Positions 43,176-51,485 of a stretch of 64,000 nucleotides of DNA are shown piece by piece; positions within the stretch are counted from its first letter, which is position 1, and each line of letters begins with the position of its first letter. Under the pieces are notes generated by a model, which was given only the letters and a program-made list of their open reading frames with translations, was not told where the DNA came from and searched no databases. Origin of the DNA: Rhizobiales bacterium dw_265. Lineage in GTDB: Bacteria > Pseudomonadota > Alphaproteobacteria > Micropepsales > Micropepsaceae. The stretch lies in contig JAAVUU010000002.1 of NCBI GenBank assembly GCA_018449595.1, positions 1 to 64,000 on the forward strand, written 5' to 3'. A program made the position numbers and the translations under genes.

Positions 43176-43227
43176 GTTCCCAGAATCGCACTAGCTTTAT
43201 CCACATCAATTGATGAGGAGTTTTGTC

Positions 43228-43491
43228 ATGGCAAAGAAGAGCAAGCTGGCCGCTGCGGCCGCGGATCTGGAAGCAGCTGTCACGGGCCTGTTTACGGCGA
43301 CCCCGGAGCCGGCCCCGGTGAAGAAGAAAGCGAAGAAGAAAGCGAAGAAGAAGAAGGCCAAGAAGACCAAGAAGGCCAAGAAGACCGCCACCAAGAAGGT
43401 GGTGAAGGCGGCGAAGAAGACCGCCAAGAAGGCCAAGAAAGCCGCCAAGAAGTCTGTGAAAAAGGCCAAGAAGAAGGCCAAGAAGAAATAA
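43228..43491 (+). CDS. Histone H1-like lysine/alanine-rich protein
   Basis: An 87-residue strongly basic protein. Residues 1-30 (MAKKSKLAAAAADLEAAVTGLFTATPEPAP) are a short ordered part; the remaining 57 residues are almost only Lys and Ala in AKK/KKAKK repeats with a few Thr/Val/Ser. It resembles the C-terminal domain of histone H1 and the AlgP/Hc1-type bacterial proteins that bind DNA. A GAGGAG ribosome site lies 5 nt before ATG 43228. It lies alone between two terminators, so it is an independent transcription unit at the head of the island. Confidence 0.8.
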   Translation: MAKKSKLAAAAADLEAAVTGLFTATPEPAPVKKKAKKKAKKKKAKKTKKAKKTATKKVVKAAKKTAKKAKKAAKKSVKKAKKKAKKK

Positions 43492-43603
43492 GGCGGATCG
43501 GATGAAGCCTCCGTGGGGCTTCATCCCGCCGAATTGCCAAGCCGGGCGGCGTCCGGCGCGGCAGTGGTTCAAGGGCGCTGTCCAGCCGGGCGGCGCCCCT
43601 TTT
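43492..43603 (+). terminator. 3'-UTR hairpin module copy 2 and terminator
   Basis: After CGGATCG comes hairpin 43501-43525 (GATGAAGCC / GGCTTCATC) with extra GGCGG/CCGCC pairing outside it, then GCCAAGCCGG, GGCGCGGCAGT, and a terminator hairpin 43573-43598 (GGGCGCTG / CGGCGCCC) followed by CTTTTC. The landmarks match those after rpsA in the same order. Confidence 0.7.
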
Positions 43604-43685: not shown

Positions 43686-44165
43686 ATGAAAATCAGAACC
43701 GCAACGATCCTGGCCGCCCTGGCGGTGCTTCCGGCCATGGCCCAGCCCGTCGCGCCGCCGCCGCACGCCTTGCCGTTCGACGCCTTCGTCTACCAGCCGG
43801 CCGCCGAGGTCGAGGCCCTGACCAAGCTCAAGGACGGCCGCTCGGCCTCGAAAATCGTCATCGACCACGAGACCTATTTCATCGAATACGTCACAAGGGG
43901 GATCAACACCCAGCCCGAAGCCCACGGCCACTGGTACGACTATATCCATGTGCTGGCGGGCGAGGGCTCGATCACCTATGGCGGCACCCAGGAGGGCGCC
44001 ACCGATGCCGGCCAGCAGGAAATGCGCGGCGGCAAACTGGTGGGCGGCAAGACCCAGATCCTGCATCCCGGCGACCGGCTGGTGGTGCCGCCCGGCCTGC
44101 CGCACCTGTTCACCGCCACGCCCGGCAACACCTTTACCTACCTGATCTTCAAGCAGCGGGTCTGA
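43686..44165 (+). CDS. Secreted cupin-domain protein 1
   Basis: A 159-residue exported protein: signal peptide MKIRTATILAALAVLPAMA, then one cupin barrel with PEAHGHWYDYIHVLAGEGSITYGGTQEGA (first metal motif, two His) and KTQILHPGDRLVVPPGLPHLFTATPGNTFTYLIFK (second motif, His). The metal site looks intact, so it may be a small enzyme (isomerase, lyase or oxygenase) or a ligand binder in the periplasm. First of three tandem, related secreted cupins; spacing to the second is 44 nt. Confidence 0.85.
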   Translation: MKIRTATILAALAVLPAMAQPVAPPPHALPFDAFVYQPAAEVEALTKLKDGRSASKIVIDHETYFIEYVTRGINTQPEAHGHWYDYIHVLAGEGSITYGGTQEGATDAGQQEMRGGKLVGGKTQILHPGDRLVVPPGLPHLFTATPGNTFTYLIFKQRV

Positions 44166-44209
44166 GCCGTCCCGCCGGTGTCCCCCGCAACAAACAACAG
44201 GCCGCGCCC

Positions 44210-44716
44210 ATGACACGCCGTATCCTGCTTCTCGCCGCTGCCCTGGGCGCCATGGCCTTGCCCGCCGCCGCCCAGGCGCCCCAGATGACCGCCACGGTGA
44301 CGGATCGTACCGCGCCCGATACCGCGGTGCGCCGCCTGGCCGGCGCCGCCTTGTCCCAGACCATCGCCAGGGGCATGACGCCCAATGCCTGGTATTCCCA
44401 GGTCCTGCTGTCCCGGCACGATGCCTATCAGGTGATGAATGTGGCGCGCGACAAGACCGGCCAGGCGGAAATCCATGCCGATTTCGCCGACCATGTCTTC
44501 ATCCAGTCCGGCGAGGGGACCCTGATGACCGGCGGCAGGGTGCCCGACGCCAGGGACACCGCCCCCGGCGAGCGGCGCGGCAGCGCCGTCATCGCCGGCA
44601 ATACCCAGCCGATGCGGGCGGGCGATTACTTCTTCATCCCGCCGGGCGTGCCGCACCAGATGATCCTGCCGCGTGGCGGCCGCATCCAGTACATCACCTT
44701 CAAAACCCATAAGTAG
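44210..44716 (+). CDS. Secreted cupin-domain protein 2
   Basis: A 168-residue exported cupin: signal peptide MTRRILLLAAALGAMALPAAA, then AEIHADFADHVFIQSGEGTLMTGGRV and MRAGDYFFIPPGVPHQMILPRGGRIQYITFK. The first motif keeps one clear His and an Asp-His pair; the second keeps PHQ. A longer N-terminal helix (TVTDRTAPDTAVRRLAGAALSQTIA) separates it from its two neighbours, so it is the more divergent of the trio. Followed by cupin 3 after 9 nt. Confidence 0.85.
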   Translation: MTRRILLLAAALGAMALPAAAQAPQMTATVTDRTAPDTAVRRLAGAALSQTIARGMTPNAWYSQVLLSRHDAYQVMNVARDKTGQAEIHADFADHVFIQSGEGTLMTGGRVPDARDTAPGERRGSAVIAGNTQPMRAGDYFFIPPGVPHQMILPRGGRIQYITFKTHK

Positions 44717-44725
44717 GAGGCCGCC

Positions 44726-45199
44726 ATGCTGACCCGATTGATCGCTGCCGCCGCTTTGCTGGCTGCCACGCCCGCCTTGGCGCAGGTCCGCGCCAAGGAG
44801 CCCGACAGCTACATCTTCAAATCCGCGGGGGAGATCGACAAAACCATTTCCCAGCCCGAAGGGGGGCGGGTCTATGGCGCCACCTTCATGAACGACCATG
44901 AGAATTATTATATCGAGTTCGTGAAGCGGCTCGACCATGGCAACATGGTGGAACTGCATCCCCACTGGGTCGACCAGATCACCATCATCGCGGGCGAGGG
45001 CGTCCTGACCTTCGGCGGCACCGTCAAGGACGGCAATATCGCGCCCAACGGCGAGGTTCGCGGCGGAACCCAGGTCGGCGCCACCACCCAGGCGCTGCAT
45101 CCCGGCGATTTCGTGCTGATCCCGGCGGGCTCGGCGCACAAGTTCGACGCCGCGCCCGGCAAGACCGTTACTTACGTCGTGGCCAAGGCGCGCAACTAG
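44726..45199 (+). CDS. Secreted cupin-domain protein 3
   Basis: A 157-residue exported cupin: signal peptide MLTRLIAAAALLAATPALA, then YYIEFVKRLDHGNMVELHPHWVDQITIIAGEGVLTFGG (two His of motif 1) and ATTQALHPGDFVLIPAGSAHKFDAAPGKTVTYVVAK (motif 2). Closest to cupin 1: both share an ExxDY/YFIEYV-like strand, a G-x-x-G-x-T-Q segment and the PGxTxTY end. An AGGAGG ribosome site precedes the ATG. Its stop overlaps the convergent EamA gene by 4 nt. Confidence 0.86.
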   Translation: MLTRLIAAAALLAATPALAQVRAKEPDSYIFKSAGEIDKTISQPEGGRVYGATFMNDHENYYIEFVKRLDHGNMVELHPHWVDQITIIAGEGVLTFGGTVKDGNIAPNGEVRGGTQVGATTQALHPGDFVLIPAGSAHKFDAAPGKTVTYVVAKARN

Positions 45200-46119
45200 T
45201 CAGGCTCGCCCGCCAGCATCGCCTTGCGCGGCCGCCACAGCAGGTTGACCGCCAGCCCGCCCATGATGAGCAGCGTGGCGCCGATCTTCCACAAGGGCAG
45301 GGGCTCGCCCAGCAGGAAGGCGCTGGCCGCGAAGCCGAACACCGGCACCAGCAGCGACATGGGGCTGATGGTGGCGGCGGGATAGCGCGACAGCAGCCAG
45401 GCCCAGCAGGCAAAGCCGAACATGGTGTTGCCGCTGGACTGCCAGATCACCGCGGCCCAGGTGACCGGGCCGGCCTGCTGCAGGCCTCTCAGGATCGCGG
45501 CGGGGCCCTCGCTCAGCAAGGATACCGCCAGCAGGATCGGGGTCGAGATCATCGCCGCCCAGACGATGAAGGCCAGCATGTTGATCGTTTCGCCCCTGGC
45601 CGCCGCATCGCGCGCCGCCTCGCGCGCCGCCTGGTTGCTGATCGCCCAGCTCATGGCGGCCAGCAGCACCAGCGCCAGGCCCTCCAGGGTCACGTCATGG
45701 CCGTTATGGGCGGCGATCAGCCCCATGCCCGCCAGCGCCAGGCCAAAGGCGACCAGCTGGTGCGCCCCTACCGTTTCGCCCTGCCGCCCCATGGCGATGG
45801 CGATGGTGAAGAAGACCTGCATCTGCAGCATCAGCGACGCCAGGCCCGGCGAGATCATGCCGTTCATGGCGAAGAACAGCAGGCCGAACTGCAGCGGCCC
45901 CGAACAGATGCCGTACAGTATCAGGTATTTCCACGGCACTCGCGGGCGCTTGACGAACAAGGCGGCGGGCAGGAACACCAGCGCGAAGCGCAGGGTGACG
46001 AAGAACAGCGGCGGCAGCACGTCCAGCCCGATGCGGATGATGGCGAAATTGGTGCCCCAGACGAACACGATGCCGAGCGCCAGCAGCGCGTCGCGCAGGG
46101 AAAGATGGCTCTTGGTCAC
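45196..46119 (-). CDS. EamA/DMT family inner-membrane transporter
   Basis: A 307-residue, 10-helix drug/metabolite transporter with two EamA repeats (about 10-140 and 155-290). GIVFVWGTNFAIIRIGLDVLPPLFFVTLRFALVFLPA in helices 1-2 and WAWLLSRYPAATISPMSLLVPVFGFAASAFLLGE in the second repeat are typical of the amino-acid/metabolite exporter branch (RhaT/YdcZ/EamA type). Starts with GTG at 46119. It is divergent from the enolase-superfamily gene, sharing a 175-nt promoter region. Confidence 0.9.
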   Translation of the reverse strand: MTKSHLSLRDALLALGIVFVWGTNFAIIRIGLDVLPPLFFVTLRFALVFLPAALFVKRPRVPWKYLILYGICSGPLQFGLLFFAMNGMISPGLASLMLQMQVFFTIAIAMGRQGETVGAHQLVAFGLALAGMGLIAAHNGHDVTLEGLALVLLAAMSWAISNQAAREAARDAAARGETINMLAFIVWAAMISTPILLAVSLLSEGPAAILRGLQQAGPVTWAAVIWQSSGNTMFGFACWAWLLSRYPAATISPMSLLVPVFGFAASAFLLGEPLPLWKIGATLLIMGGLAVNLLWRPRKAMLAGEPD

Positions 46120-46216
46120 GATGGCTCCCGGAAGCCGTCACTATAGCGGCGGCGTTCCGCTTGCGATGTGCAAAAGCCGCATGCTGGTTGCCGCGCTGCA
46201 ACATGGCGACGATGTC

Positions 46217-46232
46217 ACATATGTATACAGAA
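46217..46232. promoter_or_regulatory. Possible GntR-type operator
   Basis: CACATATGTATACAGA holds the 8-bp palindrome TGTATACA (46222-46229) and the overlapping ACATATGT, AT-rich in a GC-rich region, 65 nt before the enolase-superfamily start. Hexuronate regulators of the UxuR/ExuR type recognise sites with a central GTATAC core. No regulator gene is adjacent. Confidence 0.35.
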
Positions 46233-46294
46233 CCTTGCCGATTTCGCCGGTCCCACTTACGGTCGCCGCAACAAGAACATCCAGGGGAGTGACG

Positions 46295-47635
46295 ATGCGC
46301 AGACGTGAGATTTTGGGTGCGGCCGTGGCCGGCGGCGCCGCCGCGGCCACGCTTCTGGCCGCCCGTGAAGCCGAGGCCCAGGAGAAGACCGCCCGCGCCA
46401 TGCGCGGCGTGCCATCTCCCAAGATCACCGATGTCAGCGTTATCGAATGTGCCCCCCAGGGCTCGCGCCTGACCGTGGTCAAGGTCACCACCGACCAGGC
46501 CGGCCTGTTCGGCTATGGCTGCGCCACCTTCACCCAGCGCGCCGACCTCATCAAACCCGCCGTCGAGAAATACCTGCGCCCGCTGCTGATCGGCAAACCC
46601 GCCGACCGCATCGAGGACACCTGGCAGATGTGCTACGACTCTTCCTATTGGAAGAACGGTCCTGTCGAGAACAACGCCATCTCCGGCGTGGACCAGGCGC
46701 TGTGGGACATCAAGGGCAAGATGGCGGGCATGCCCGTCTACCAACTGCTGGGCGGCAAGGCGCGCGAGGCCATCGACACCTATGGCCATGCTAGCGGCAA
46801 CGAAATCGCCGAATGCATCGACAGCGCAAAAAAATACATCGCCCAGGGCTTCCGCCATGTCCGCATCCAGGTGGGTACGCCGGGCATGGACGGCTATGGC
46901 GCCCGCAACAAAAACGGCCCCCGCATCCCGTCGCTGCACACCGCCCCGGTGTTCGAGCGCGAGGCGGCGATGAAGCGGGCGCTGGCGCTGTTCGAAGCCG
47001 CGCGCAAGGAACTGGGGCCCGACATCGAACTGATCCATGACGCCCATGAGCGCTATACCCCGACCCAGGCGGTGCAGTTCGCCAAGCTGTGCGAGCCCTA
47101 CCGGCTGTTCTTCCTGGAAGACGCGCTGTCGCCGGAAGACATCCAGTGGTTCCGCAACATCCGCGCCCAGACCACCACGCCGCTGGCGATGGGGGAATTG
47201 TTCAACAGCCCGCATGAGATCATTCCCCTGATCCAGGACCGGCTGATCGACTATATGCGGATGCACATCTCGCAGATGGGCGGGCTGACCCCGGTGCGCA
47301 AGATCGCGGCGATGGGCGAACTTTACAATGTCCGCACCGCCTGGCACGGCCCCGGCGATGTCAGCCCCATCGGCCATATGGCGATGACCCATCTGGACCT
47401 TTCCATCACCAATTTCGGCATCCAGGAATATTCCGAGATGAACGACCTGACCCTGGAGATATTCCGTGGCGCGCCGGTGATGAAGGGCGGCTATCTCTAT
47501 GCCAATGACGCGCCGGGCTGGGGCATCGAGATCGACGAGGCGCTGGCGGCGAAACATCCCTTCAACCGCGACAATGTGCTGAACGGCGGCTGGGGCGAAG
47601 TGCGCCTGCCGGACGGCCAGATCATCAAGCAGTAG
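46295..47635 (+). CDS. Tat-exported enolase-superfamily enzyme, mannonate-dehydratase-like (ManD/RspA)
   Basis: A 446-residue enzyme with N-terminal twin-arginine signal MRRREILGAAVAGGAAAATLL (Arg-rich n-region, hydrophobic core, AEA cleavage). The mature part has the ManD-type landmarks: FRHVRIQVG...GYGARN (candidate Arg/Tyr dyad), LIHDAHERYTP (metal Asp and catalytic His), FLEDALSPED (metal Glu), MGELFNSP (metal Glu) and WHGPGDVSPIGHMA. ManD enzymes dehydrate D-mannonate or D-gluconate and are normally cytoplasmic. ATG 46295 has GGGGAG upstream; GTG 46289 is possible. Upstream of the PQQ dehydrogenase gene (18 nt). Confidence 0.87.
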   Translation: MRRREILGAAVAGGAAAATLLAAREAEAQEKTARAMRGVPSPKITDVSVIECAPQGSRLTVVKVTTDQAGLFGYGCATFTQRADLIKPAVEKYLRPLLIGKPADRIEDTWQMCYDSSYWKNGPVENNAISGVDQALWDIKGKMAGMPVYQLLGGKAREAIDTYGHASGNEIAECIDSAKKYIAQGFRHVRIQVGTPGMDGYGARNKNGPRIPSLHTAPVFEREAAMKRALALFEAARKELGPDIELIHDAHERYTPTQAVQFAKLCEPYRLFFLEDALSPEDIQWFRNIRAQTTTPLAMGELFNSPHEIIPLIQDRLIDYMRMHISQMGGLTPVRKIAAMGELYNVRTAWHGPGDVSPIGHMAMTHLDLSITNFGIQEYSEMNDLTLEIFRGAPVMKGGYLYANDAPGWGIEIDEALAAKHPFNRDNVLNGGWGEVRLPDGQIIKQ

Positions 47636-47653
47636 CAGTAGAGAGATTTTCCG

Positions 47654-49714
47654 ATGCTCAATCGCAGAATGATGCTGGCCACGTCCTCGGCCCTGGCCCT
47701 GATCGGCCCTTCCATCGCCGGGGCGCAGGGCGCGCCCGCCGAAACCGACTGGCTGCATTATGCCAACGACCTGGCCAGCACCCGCTATTCGCCGCTGGAC
47801 CAGATCGACGCCTCCAATTTCGACAAATTGGAACTGGCCTGGCGGTTCTCGACCAACGCCCTGGGTCCGCGCCTGGACGCCGACTACCAGTCCACCCCGC
47901 TGGTGGTGAAGGGGCGTATCTATTGCACCGCCGGCTTCCGCCGCGACGTGGTCTGCCTGGATGCCGGCACCGGCGAACTGCTGTGGATGCACACCCATGA
48001 CGAGGGCGCGCGCATCGGCACCCGGGGTGGTTCGGGCCTGGGCGTCGGCTACTGGACCGACGGCACCATCGAGCGCGTGATCTATGTCACACGCGGCTAC
48101 ACCATGTTCTCGCTGGACGCCAAAACCGGCATTCCCGACCCCGCCTTCGGCACCGGCGGCTTCACCGACCTGCGCCTGAATGACGACCAGGTCATCGATC
48201 CGGATCGCGGCGTCATCGGCCTGCATGCGCCGCCGCTGGTGGTGGGCAACACCATCGTGGTGGGCTCGGCGCCCACCGCCTTCGCCAAGGGCTATGTGCG
48301 CGGCTTCGACGTCAGGACCGGCCAGCGCAAGTGGATCTTCCACAATGTGCCGATGAAGGGCGAGTTCGGCTATGACACCTGGACCACGCCCGGCCAGGCG
48401 GAGGCCACCGGCAATACCGGCGCCTGGGCGCCGATGTCGGCGGACCCCGAACTGGGCCTGGTCTATCTGCCCATCGAACTGCCGCCCACCGACATGCTGG
48501 GCATCTCCCGCGCCGGCAATGCGCTGTTCTCCGAGAGCCTGGTGGCGGTGGAAATCGAGACCGGCAAGCGCGTCTGGCACTACCAGATGATCCATCACGG
48601 GCTGTGGGATCGCGACGTGTCCTGCGCCGGCATCCTGTGCGACATCCCCCACAACGGCAAGATCGTCAAGGCGATCGCCCAGCCCAGCAAGCAGGGCTAC
48701 ATCTATGTGCTGGACCGCGCCACCGGCAAGCCGGTCTGGCCGATCCCGGAAAAGCCGGTGCCGATCGGCAAGGTGCCTGGCGAAACCTATTCGCCGACCC
48801 AGCCGATGCCGACCAGGCCGCCGCCTTTCGCCAGGCAGGGCGTCACCGAAAACGACTTTGTGGATTTCACGCCCCAGCTCAAGGCGCGCGCGATGGAGAT
48901 CGCCAAACATTATACTTGGGGGCCGCTGTACGAACCCCCGGCGGTGACCAGCGACACCATCTTCGGCACCTTGAACCTGCCGGGCCTGCAGGGCGGCGCC
49001 AACTGGCCGGGCGGCTCCTACGATCCCGAGAGCCACATCCTCTATATCTATGCCAAGAACCAGTTCGAACTCACCGGCATCGTCATCGGCAAGGACGGCA
49101 GGATCAACCAGCGCGGCGGCCAGCCTTCGTCGGGCAGCGACGATTCCCAGGGTGGCGTCTTCGGCGGCGCGGCCAGCCTGAAGGGCCAGGAGGGGCGCGG
49201 CCGCGATTCCGTCAAGCCGGACGGTTTGGGCGATCCCATCGTGCCGGGCATGATCTCCATCGAGGGCATTCCCCTGATGAAGCCGCCCTATGGCGTCATC
49301 AGCGCCATCGATCTCAACAACGGCACCATGCTGTGGCAGGCGGTGCATGGCGAGACTCCGGACAAGATCAGGAACCATCCGCTGCTCAAGGGCGTCACCA
49401 TCCCCAAGACCGGCCAGGCCGGCATCCTGGGCACGCTGACCACCAAGAGCCTGGTGATCTGCGGCGATTGCGGGTTGTTCACCGACGAAACGGGCCGCAA
49501 GGGCGGACGGCTGCGCGCCTATGACAAGGCCACGGGCAAGGAAGTCGGCGCGGTGTTCATGGACAAGGCCCAGACCGGCGCCACCATGACCTATATGCAC
49601 CAGGGAAGGCAGTATCTGGTCTGCGCCCAGGGCAGCTATTACGGCGCCGATCTTGTCGCCTATCGCCTGCCGGGTGATGTCGGCGGCGCCAAGGTCATCC
49701 GCGAGGAGCGGTAA
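47654..49714 (+). CDS. PQQ-dependent dehydrogenase (quinoprotein)
   Basis: A 686-residue periplasmic quinoprotein. It starts MLNRRMMLATSSALALIGPSIAGA, which has an NRRMML twin-arginine-like signal. The beta-propeller repeats contain tryptophan-docking motifs such as LDAGTGELLWMHTH, VEIETGKRVWHYQMIHHGLWDRD, VLDRATGKPVWPIPEKPVP and AIDLNNGTMLWQAVHGE. HHGLWDRD and DYQSTPLVVKGRIYC are typical of the membrane-glucose-dehydrogenase-like class of PQQ enzymes, here without its N-terminal membrane helices. No cytochrome c domain (CxxCH) is fused. Its stop touches the next ATG (1-nt overlap). Confidence 0.9.
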   Translation: MLNRRMMLATSSALALIGPSIAGAQGAPAETDWLHYANDLASTRYSPLDQIDASNFDKLELAWRFSTNALGPRLDADYQSTPLVVKGRIYCTAGFRRDVVCLDAGTGELLWMHTHDEGARIGTRGGSGLGVGYWTDGTIERVIYVTRGYTMFSLDAKTGIPDPAFGTGGFTDLRLNDDQVIDPDRGVIGLHAPPLVVGNTIVVGSAPTAFAKGYVRGFDVRTGQRKWIFHNVPMKGEFGYDTWTTPGQAEATGNTGAWAPMSADPELGLVYLPIELPPTDMLGISRAGNALFSESLVAVEIETGKRVWHYQMIHHGLWDRDVSCAGILCDIPHNGKIVKAIAQPSKQGYIYVLDRATGKPVWPIPEKPVPIGKVPGETYSPTQPMPTRPPPFARQGVTENDFVDFTPQLKARAMEIAKHYTWGPLYEPPAVTSDTIFGTLNLPGLQGGANWPGGSYDPESHILYIYAKNQFELTGIVIGKDGRINQRGGQPSSGSDDSQGGVFGGAASLKGQEGRGRDSVKPDGLGDPIVPGMISIEGIPLMKPPYGVISAIDLNNGTMLWQAVHGETPDKIRNHPLLKGVTIPKTGQAGILGTLTTKSLVICGDCGLFTDETGRKGGRLRAYDKATGKEVGAVFMDKAQTGATMTYMHQGRQYLVCAQGSYYGADLVAYRLPGDVGGAKVIREER

Positions 49715-50697
49715 TGCGCCTCGCCGCCGCGCTGGCGCTGACCCTGCTGACGGGCGCGGCGAACGCCCAGATGACGCCCGCGCCCACCGGGCTGCCCGAT
49801 CCCTTCGGGCCGCCGGAACGGCAATGGGCCAGGCTGGCCGACGGCAAGCCCTGGGGCACCACGGCGGGCATCGAGATCGGGCCGCATGGCGAGATCTGGG
49901 CGATTGACCGCTGCGGCGACGGCACCTGCGACGGCTCGCAGATGGCGGCGGTGCATCAGATCGATCCCAAGACCGGCCGCCCCATCCGCAGCATCGGCCA
50001 GGGCCTGTTCGCCATGCCCCATGGCCTGCATGTCGATAAAGACGGAAACGTCTGGGTGACCGATGCCGCCGTCGCCAAGGACAAGTCGCGGGGCGAACAG
50101 GTCATCAAGCTGTCGCCCGAGGGCAAGGTGCTGCTGCGGCTGGGCACCAGGGCGGAATCCGGCGGCGGGCCGGATCACTTCAATGATCCCGGCGATGTGG
50201 TGACCGCGCCCAATGGCGACATCTTTGTCGCCGACGGCCATGGTACCGTGGCGCCCGACCTGCCGCCCGACACCGTCACCCGCATCATCAAGTTCACGCC
50301 CGACGGCAAGTTCATAAAAGCCTGGGGCAGCCTGGGTTCTGGCAAAAGCCAGTTCCGCAATCCGCATGCCCTGGTGTTCGACAGCAAGGGCCGGCTGCTG
50401 GTGGCCGACCGGGTCAATGGCCGCATCCAGGTGTTCGACCAGGACGGCAAGTGGCTGACGGAGTATCGCGGCTTCAACCATCCCAGCGGGCTGTTCATTC
50501 TGCCCGACGACACGCTCTATGCCAGCGACTATAACAGCGACGGCCAGAAGGGCGTTTACATCGGCAGCGCCAGGACCGGAAAGCTGGCGGGTTTCGTGCC
50601 CGATGCCGAAGCCGGGGAGGGCGTGGCGCTGGGGCCTGACGGCACGCTGTATGAGGCGACGCCCACCGGCATCACCCGCTTCCTGCCGAAGAAATAG
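49714..50697 (+). CDS. Secreted NHL-repeat beta-propeller protein
   Basis: A 327-residue exported propeller: signal peptide MRLAAALALTLLTGAANA, then six NHL-type blades such as PHGLHVDKDGNVWVTDAA, FNDPGDVVTAPNGDIFVADGH, FRNPHALVFDSKGRLLVADRVNGRIQVFDQDGKW and HPSGLFILPDDTLYASDYN. This pattern matches the peptidyl-alpha-hydroxyglycine lyase/SMP-30-like group; a lactonase or lyase acting on the product of the PQQ enzyme is possible. Two cysteines in DRCGDGTCDG could form a disulfide. Its ATG overlaps the last base of the dehydrogenase stop, so the two are coupled. Confidence 0.85.
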   Translation: MRLAAALALTLLTGAANAQMTPAPTGLPDPFGPPERQWARLADGKPWGTTAGIEIGPHGEIWAIDRCGDGTCDGSQMAAVHQIDPKTGRPIRSIGQGLFAMPHGLHVDKDGNVWVTDAAVAKDKSRGEQVIKLSPEGKVLLRLGTRAESGGGPDHFNDPGDVVTAPNGDIFVADGHGTVAPDLPPDTVTRIIKFTPDGKFIKAWGSLGSGKSQFRNPHALVFDSKGRLLVADRVNGRIQVFDQDGKWLTEYRGFNHPSGLFILPDDTLYASDYNSDGQKGVYIGSARTGKLAGFVPDAEAGEGVALGPDGTLYEATPTGITRFLPKK

Positions 50698-50703
50698 CTG
50701 CGC

Positions 50704-51447
50704 CTAGGGCGCGCGCAGGAACAGTCCGACGGTCAACAGCACGCCGATGGCCACCGCCCCGCCGCGCAGCACCTTTTCATTGACATGGTTGATCATCATG
50801 CCGCCGATCAGCCCGCCGATCGCCGCCCCCACCGCCGCCACCGCGACCTGCAGCCAGTGGACCTCGGGCGAAAAGGCGAAGATCGCCACGGCGCTGGCGT
50901 TCATCACGCCGGCCAGCACATTCTTGGTGGCGCCGGCATTGCGGATGGCCAGGCCCGCGGCGGTCAAGGCCGCCAGCATCAGAAAACCGATGCCGCCGCC
51001 GAAATAGCCGCCATAGATCGAGATCAGGAATTGCACGATGCCGGCGGCGACGGGGCCGAGGGCATGGCCGGTCTTCTGGCGCTTGGGGCCGAAGCTGCCA
51101 TAGGCGAAGACGGCGGTGGCGAACAGCACCAGCCAGGGCACCATCCGGGCGAAGATGCTGGAGGGCGTCACCAGCAGCAGGATGGCGCCCAGGACGCCGC
51201 CGCACAGGCTGATGATGACCAGCGCCTTGAACGACAGCGAACCCACGCCGCAGACATGGCCGCGCCCGCCCCAGGCCGAGGTGATCTGGCCGGGAAACAG
51301 CGCGATGGTGGAGGTGACGTTAGCCTGCAGCGCATTCATGCCGGTCAGCATCAGCGCGGGCAGGGTCAGGAAGGTGCCGCCGCCCGCCAGGGTGTTCTGG
51401 ATGCCGGCCCACAGGGCCGCGGCGAAGAGGATGGCGAAGGCGGTCAT
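50704..51447 (-). CDS. TauE/SafE (TSUP) family membrane permease
   Basis: A 247-residue protein with about eight transmembrane helices in two repeats. AALWAGIQNTLAGGGTFLTLPALMLTGMNALQANVTSTIALFPG is the TSUP first repeat and LISIYGGYFGGGIGFLMLAALTAAG the second; GGG-F repeats mark the family. Members move sulfite, sulfonates or other small organic anions out of the cell. ATG 51447 is chosen since the hydrophobic first helix begins at once. Convergent with the NHL gene, 6 nt apart. Confidence 0.9.
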   Translation of the reverse strand: MTAFAILFAAALWAGIQNTLAGGGTFLTLPALMLTGMNALQANVTSTIALFPGQITSAWGGRGHVCGVGSLSFKALVIISLCGGVLGAILLLVTPSSIFARMVPWLVLFATAVFAYGSFGPKRQKTGHALGPVAAGIVQFLISIYGGYFGGGIGFLMLAALTAAGLAIRNAGATKNVLAGVMNASAVAIFAFSPEVHWLQVAVAAVGAAIGGLIGGMMINHVNEKVLRGGAVAIGVLLTVGLFLRAP

Positions 51448-51485
51448 GGACCCGCAATGGCACAGCCCGGCGGACCCGGCAAGTC

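Follow-up and report, generated by a model that had tools for sequence, protein, structure and literature searches.

The window analyzed here is a stretch of 64,000 nucleotides from the alphaproteobacterium Rhizobiales bacterium dw_265 (family Micropepsaceae; assembly GCA_018449595.1, contig JAAVUU010000002.1). At positions 43686-50697 it harbors an island of seven genes, encoding three small cupins, an EamA-family permease, a ManD-like enzyme of the enolase superfamily, a quinoprotein-like propeller, and an NHL propeller. The island may represent one of several modules with which its lineage processes sugar acids by means of exported proteins, a reading drawn from sequence comparison and held here with evenly balanced confidence. 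By computation, the genes are linked and their locus is conserved, a promoter element is shared among relatives, and the proteins display export signals as well as conserved catalytic patterns. A first-pass annotation, made from the sequence alone, had placed and ordered the seven genes exactly, and its families agree with Pfam, where every protein of the island scores above cut-off. It had also described six exported proteins with one EamA permease between them; in agreement, all six plus-strand proteins carry an N-terminus that resembles a signal peptide.

Three of the plus-strand genes are tightly packed: the ManD-like enzyme (46295-47635; 446 amino acids, MR_MLE_N and MR_MLE_C domains, predicted to be exported via twin-arginine translocation, Tat), the quinoprotein-like propeller (47654-49714; 686 amino acids, PF01011 at 3e-163, Tat-type start), and the secreted, PAL-like NHL propeller (49714-50697; 327 amino acids, Pfam NHL). 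Only 18 bp separate the ManD and quinoprotein genes, and the start codon of the NHL gene overlaps the quinoprotein stop; most likely the three are co-transcribed from one promoter. Upstream lie the genes of the cupins, i.e. cup1 (43686-44165; 159 amino acids, Pfam Cupin_2 at 6.9e-8, predicted to be Sec-exported), cup2 (44210-44716; 168 amino acids, 1.9e-7), and cup3 (44726-45199; 157 amino acids, 1.7e-6), all on the plus strand. The permease gene (45196-46119, minus strand; Pfam EamA at 1.4e-27) is divergent from ManD, and its stop meets that of cup3 at 45196-45199. Since EamA runs antisense to the cupins and converges with them, at least two plus-strand transcription units are predicted, the cupins and ManD-quinoprotein-NHL, with the cupins forming a neighboring exported unit beside the operon. 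The same arrangement rules out one six-gene operon.

The putative operon is preceded by a conserved element of the form GTATACA-N4-CTTGCCG ... CTTACGGTCGC (46223-46266, plus strand), recognized by comparative alignment. In the window, the sequence upstream of ManD reads GTATACAGAACCTTGCCG ... CTTACGGTCGC, the latter part occupying 46256-46266. A scan of the island for sigma-70 sites returned no consensus promoter; the alignment nevertheless displays the conserved element. The first half (46223-46240), searched as GTATACA-N2-5-CTTGCCG, occurs in a single copy per genome in 8 of the 12 genomes searched, and the reversed pattern used as a control was encountered once in total. The element precedes ManD in three genomes (G000, G018, and G059) and the quinoprotein orthologue in five others (G025, G053, G057, G072, and G081). 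In the simplest reading, the ancestral order would have been promoter-ManD-quinoprotein-NHL, with parts later lost or moved in individual lineages.

Export of the ManD-like enzyme, proposed in the first-pass annotation, is borne out at the sequence level. The N-terminus (MRRREILGAAVAGG...EAEAQ) carries a twin-arginine signal in every orthologue of 71-90% identity with a complete N-terminus, whereas cytosolic ManD paralogues of the same family (about 45% identity) do not begin with twin arginines. Orthologues occur in 17 other genomes, all of the same genus; at the threshold used, the remaining genera of the family yielded none, and neither did a sample of 289 genomes of the class. The closest solved structures are 4ihc (1.9e-129), 3t6c, and 3tw9. 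Alignment with the cytosolic paralogues reveals the catalytic Tyr loop and the HDxH motif, whose Tyr, Asp, and His residues presumably have their usual roles. The dehydration of an acid, which had been assigned to this protein, is in line with the dehydratase pattern and with the sugar-acid neighbors described below. The score against the NCBIfam equivalog for ManD (NF043051; 425.5 bits) lies under the cut-off of 550 bits, so that D-mannonate is no more than a candidate substrate. In five genomes (G025, G057, G072, G077, and G081), all or some of the following adjoin the ManD orthologue: a Tat-UxuA-like protein, a cytosolic UxuA, a xylose-isomerase-like protein, an MFS transporter, a DHDPS-family protein, an FAH-family hydrolase, a secreted amidohydrolase, and an aldehyde dehydrogenase. 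By gene content, this neighborhood is one of sugar-acid degradation. At L034:10005-11189 and in its orthologues, the Tat-exported UxuA-like protein directly adjoins Tat-ManD, and a signal-less UxuA is present in the same cluster.

The quinoprotein-like protein had been taken for an enzyme that uses pyrroloquinoline quinone (PQQ) to produce a lactone or keto product, and several results make this step doubtful. Of the residues of the E. coli Gcd site, whose roles we take as generally described, W404, D466, and K493 are retained (W258, D319, and K346), and five positions are changed (R201 to S66, E217 to Q79, H262 to G125, R266 to L129, and T424 to P278), most of them likewise in the orthologues. 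A single-protein comparison with 8gy2 displays the same Arg loss. Paralogues beside NHL genes (L126 and L127) still have the Arg and the Thr that correspond to R266 and T424. Scores against TIGR03074 (Gcd; 335.2 bits, cut-off 832.65) and TIGR04528 (acido-empty-quinoprotein group A; 215.2 bits, cut-off 650) stay below both cut-offs. The start MLNRRMML, absent from the first-pass annotation, is Tat-like and retained in orthologues; such a start is unusual where PQQ loading is expected to take place in the periplasm. As to cofactor supply, pqqC is above cut-off in 20 of the 96 genomes of the family and in none of 15 genomes comprising G000 and 14 others with close (at least 65%) quinoprotein orthologues. 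For pqqB, 14 PQQ-rich genomes were tested, including 12 that carry a close orthologue, and every one scored below cut-off. As positive controls, G012, G033, G036, and G090, which belong to the same family, score above cut-off for both genes. Outside this clade, some members of the genus and family have kept both pqqC and pqqB.

It is conceivable, if somewhat unlikely, that the protein is an ordinary PQQ dehydrogenase operating on scavenged cofactor and that the island performs classical periplasmic sugar oxidation. The retained catalytic Asp and Lys and the floor Trp would fit, as would the number of PQQ-type genes: G000 and its relatives harbor at least 10 per genome (about 20-60 first-look candidates), and it is improbable that all are useless. 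Bacteria without PQQ synthesis, e.g. E. coli and many other Gram-negatives, can use scavenged PQQ (PMC12124388). Import by PqqU, reported to be common in Gram-negatives, is however reported to be nearly absent from Alphaproteobacteria (PMC12124388), and the replaced equivalents of Arg266, His262, Thr424, Arg201, and Glu217, the lack of pqqC in the clade and of pqqB where tested, and the Tat-type start likewise count against this explanation. Because of the losses in the PQQ site, the lack of pqqC and, where tested, of pqqB, and the reported near-absence of PqqU, the quinoprotein may or may not be catalytic.

The ribosomal-protein gene rpsA adjoins the island, and a frame of the order rpsA-cupins-EamA-...-TauE-DsbD is retained in about 10 relatives, with exchanged contents: ManD alone or ManD, the quinoprotein, or NHL together with a Tat-exported xylose-isomerase-like TIM barrel. 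In G059, G069, G074, G075, and G083, rpsA-cupins-EamA-ManD-[variable]-TauE-DsbD is present as a whole or as far as the contig reaches; in G018 the frame is rearranged. The variable slot after ManD is empty or occupied by the TIM barrel or a histidine kinase. The corresponding region carries the quinoprotein orthologue and the barrel in G057, G072, and G081, NHL and the barrel in G068, and all three together on one contig of G053. There, an insertion of lower GC content with two-component genes (L110:3599-10078) separates the quinoprotein from NHL and encodes a response regulator, a solute-binding protein, and a histidine kinase. EamA is conserved in the locus, and a TauE/SafE permease borders the island in most relatives. 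Orthologues of cup1 at the same locus share 59-84% identity; cup1 and cup2 lie in tandem in most relatives, and cup3 is also present in G053 and G059. The first-pass annotation had treated the genes as a joint set. Linkage is indeed found, but it is loose: relatives carry subsets, and the exact gene set is seen in this genome only.

Such turnover invites the view that the genes are functionally independent cargo that has gathered at a variable site flanked by rpsA and the trp/accD region, so that their adjacency would say little. Unrelated inserts (the histidine kinase in L031, the two-component genes in L110), the generic nature of the EamA and TauE permeases, and the few common neighbors of NHL homologues elsewhere point that way. 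The exchanged parts, however, come from a narrow range of exported enzymes of sugar-acid type, the single-copy promoter element is retained upstream of one or the other of ManD and the quinoprotein, and the same types of enzymes recombine at other loci of this genome; we consider independent cargo unlikely.

The NHL propeller had been assigned the opening of a lactone. In a Foldseek search with its AlphaFold model (pLDDT 90), the top PDB match is PAL (3fvz, 2.9e-19), followed by a match at 1.0e-15, and the first gluconolactonase (3e5z) appears only at 3.3e-10. With PAL so far ahead, a plain gluconolactonase is disfavored and the opening of a lactone is doubtful. The score against the SMP-30/gluconolactonase family (PF08450) is 26.9 bits at a cut-off of 26.3 bits, below the score for NHL. 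All 80 of the distant homologues compared (Acidobacteria, Gemmatimonadetes, and Proteobacteria) have H103, H176, and H218 unchanged, and the protein accordingly appears more like an enzyme than a binding propeller. R237 and D272 are also invariant, R66 and R233 near-invariant, and E302 mostly conserved. The sequence alignment pairs H103 with His585 and H176 with Tyr654 of PAL; manual pairing adds H218 with His690, R233 with Arg706, and E302 with His786. In PAL we take H585, H690, and H786 to be the zinc ligands and Y654 and R706 to be catalytic. Of the four strong NHL genes in this genome, three have a PQQ-type gene at a distance of no more than 620 bp, which exceeds chance (probability about 5e-6 by simulation). 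Within the family, an NHL gene often comes after that of an exported dehydrogenase; PQQ-type and NHL genes are at most 1 kb apart in 10 loci and at most 10 kb apart in 13, several of these loci consisting of a PQQ-type gene and a cytochrome c-NHL fusion.

A true PAL-type lyase would imply a hemiaminal or hemiacetal substrate (e.g. N-acyl-hydroxyglycine-like or ether-linked acids) from which a 2-oxo acid is released. PAL being the best structural match, the conserved H585, the invariant His in place of Tyr654, and the amidohydrolases that adjoin cytochrome c-NHL loci are in line with it, but neither Y654 nor H786 is conserved as such, no monooxygenase of the PHM type was observed in the vicinity, and the ManD and UxuA neighbors indicate sugar acids; we regard this proposal as improbable.

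The three cupins share the pattern H-x-(H/D)-(W/F)-x-D ... P-x-G-x-x-H, with HxHWxD...PPGxPH in cup1, an H-x-D variant in cup2, and cup3 as a paralogue of cup1 at 41% identity. The arrangement of His and Asp is consistent with a putative metal center. As judged from the sequence, the starts of the cupins and of NHL are of the Sec type.

Comparable sets of exported proteins are encoded elsewhere in the genome. L127 and L247 each combine a Tat-type member of the DHDPS family with a PQQ-type protein and a cytochrome c-NHL fusion, with amidohydrolases near both sets and a TonB receptor near L127. At L248, Tat-type starts are found on a DHDPS-family and a xylose-isomerase-like protein, which are accompanied by a PQQ-cytochrome c fusion and two secreted cupins. 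The DHDPS-family proteins retain G(T/S)(T/N)GE-like and GIK(D/N)S motifs, including the Schiff-base lysine. Their Tat-type genes (L127:10389-11378, L247:3087-4073, and L248:11547-12767) lie beside exported dehydrogenases. Among the loci compared, cytochrome c is fused N-terminally to NHL at L127:6727-8238, L247:6244-7803, L250:5433-7058, and L251:5512-7092, each adjoining a PQQ-type gene. At L249:4054-7269, genes for a GMC oxidoreductase, a gluconate 2-dehydrogenase subunit 3, and an NHL protein are consecutive; the distance to a PQQ-type gene is 1.3 kb.

The remaining features border the island. The TauE/SafE-family permease gene (50704-51453, minus strand; PF01925 at 9.7e-31) has an uncertain start, possibly extending it to 51603. 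A terminator-like hairpin with a T-rich tail (43573-43598, plus strand; 11 pairs, 9 of them GC), found by pattern scan, ends the upstream unit. Between rpsA and the cupins, 43210-43491 encodes a short, lysine/alanine-rich histone H1-like protein. Within the island, no RNA element reached the Rfam gathering scores, and inverted repeats resembled chance.

If the island is an exported sugar-acid processing module, its most likely mode of action would be as follows; the substrate, the order of the steps, any catalysis by the quinoprotein, and all of the chemistry are what we infer. A sugar or sugar-acid derivative in the periplasm would be oxidized or rearranged by the quinoprotein-like protein and the cupins. 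A labile intermediate would then be cleaved or opened at the metal-type center of the PAL-like NHL protein. Finally, the Tat-exported ManD-like enzyme would act as a dehydratase on the aldonic acid so formed and yield a 2-keto-3-deoxy acid. Exported sugar-acid chemistry is supported by the broad multi-locus pattern more than by the single island. The recurrence of the parts in new combinations at one site in relatives, behind a common promoter element, suggests that a portion of a sugar-acid pathway was relocated beyond the inner membrane.

Several observations weigh against this reading. The quinoprotein may be empty of cofactor or use scavenged PQQ and is possibly non-catalytic. Isomerase or lyase roles, as once suggested for the cupins, find no good match to a characterized cupin in sequence or fold: a sequence search of the PDB gave no significant match, and Foldseek returned generic ones (YjgK as the best at 2.2e-6, KdgF at 1.4e-5, TM1459, and RemF; TM about 0.5). 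In relatives, members of the set occur separately, PQQ and NHL often elsewhere, and part of the linkage could reflect reuse of a variable locus. Outside the family the link is weak, as a PQQ-type gene lies within 3 kb of NHL in only 8 of 80 loci; in these 80 loci from other taxa neither ManD nor cupin neighbors were present, and no universal partner of NHL was found. The periplasmic route of the first-pass annotation is partly supported. The module is real and unusual, whereas the particular sequence of reactions has yet to be established and is doubtful at two points.

Sugar-acid dehydratases and aldolases are normally cytoplasmic. A more far-reaching proposal, about which we are doubtful, is that a largely complete non-phosphorylative sugar-acid pathway has been moved to the periplasm via Tat and Sec in several paralogous modules, comprising a dehydrogenase, a PAL-like lyase, ManD and UxuA dehydratases, Schiff-base KDG-type aldolases, and cupin and TIM-barrel isomerases; quinoproteins of the type seen in the window would then be cofactor-free or use another cofactor. 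Should the exported dehydratases and aldolases work outside the inner membrane, sugar acids would be processed before uptake in these bacteria. In lineages with many quinoprotein genes and no PQQ synthesis, the distinction between cofactor-free and cofactor-borrowing quinoproteins would become testable in one purified protein.

No named system matching this gene set was found in the literature, and its parts are best compared one by one. With the ManD subgroup, the enzyme shares both MR_MLE domains, the Tyr in the GxPG..YG loop, and the HDxH catalytic pattern, and it differs in its Tat export and in its score below the NCBIfam equivalog cut-off. Compared to the cytosolic ManD paralogues of the family, it has HGPGD for HGATD and HDAHER for HDVHHR; Pro at the HGPGD position presumably marks ManD members of low activity. 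The quinoprotein has the PF01011 propeller in common with Gcd (TIGR03074; 29% identity to the E. coli protein). In contrast to Gcd and TIGR04528, it lacks a membrane domain, starts with a Tat-type signal, has most PQQ contacts replaced, scores below both cut-offs, and belongs to a clade without PQQ synthesis. The NHL protein resembles PAL (3fvz) as its best fold match at 27% identity with H585 conserved, but has His for Tyr654 and, by manual alignment, Glu for the third His; it is bacterial and secreted along with dehydrogenases, with no PHM partner seen. For the cupins of the window, neither KdgF nor the TM1459-type proteins are a close match in structure or sequence. Direct periplasmic glucose oxidation (Gcd, gluconolactonase, and GMC gluconate dehydrogenase) likewise employs exported dehydrogenases and a propeller protein, and this genome has a locus with GMC, subunit 3, and NHL of its own (L249). 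Unlike in the classical route, where they are cytoplasmic, enzymes of dehydratase, aldolase, and isomerase type also carry export signals here; as far as sequences tell, the module would be a novel form of oxidative metabolism in the periplasm. Large paralogue families of catabolic enzymes are shared with the enolase-superfamily expansions of SAR202 (PMC6946804), with the difference that the expanded families here are those of the quinoproteins and NHL proteins, and that the enolase is linked and exported.

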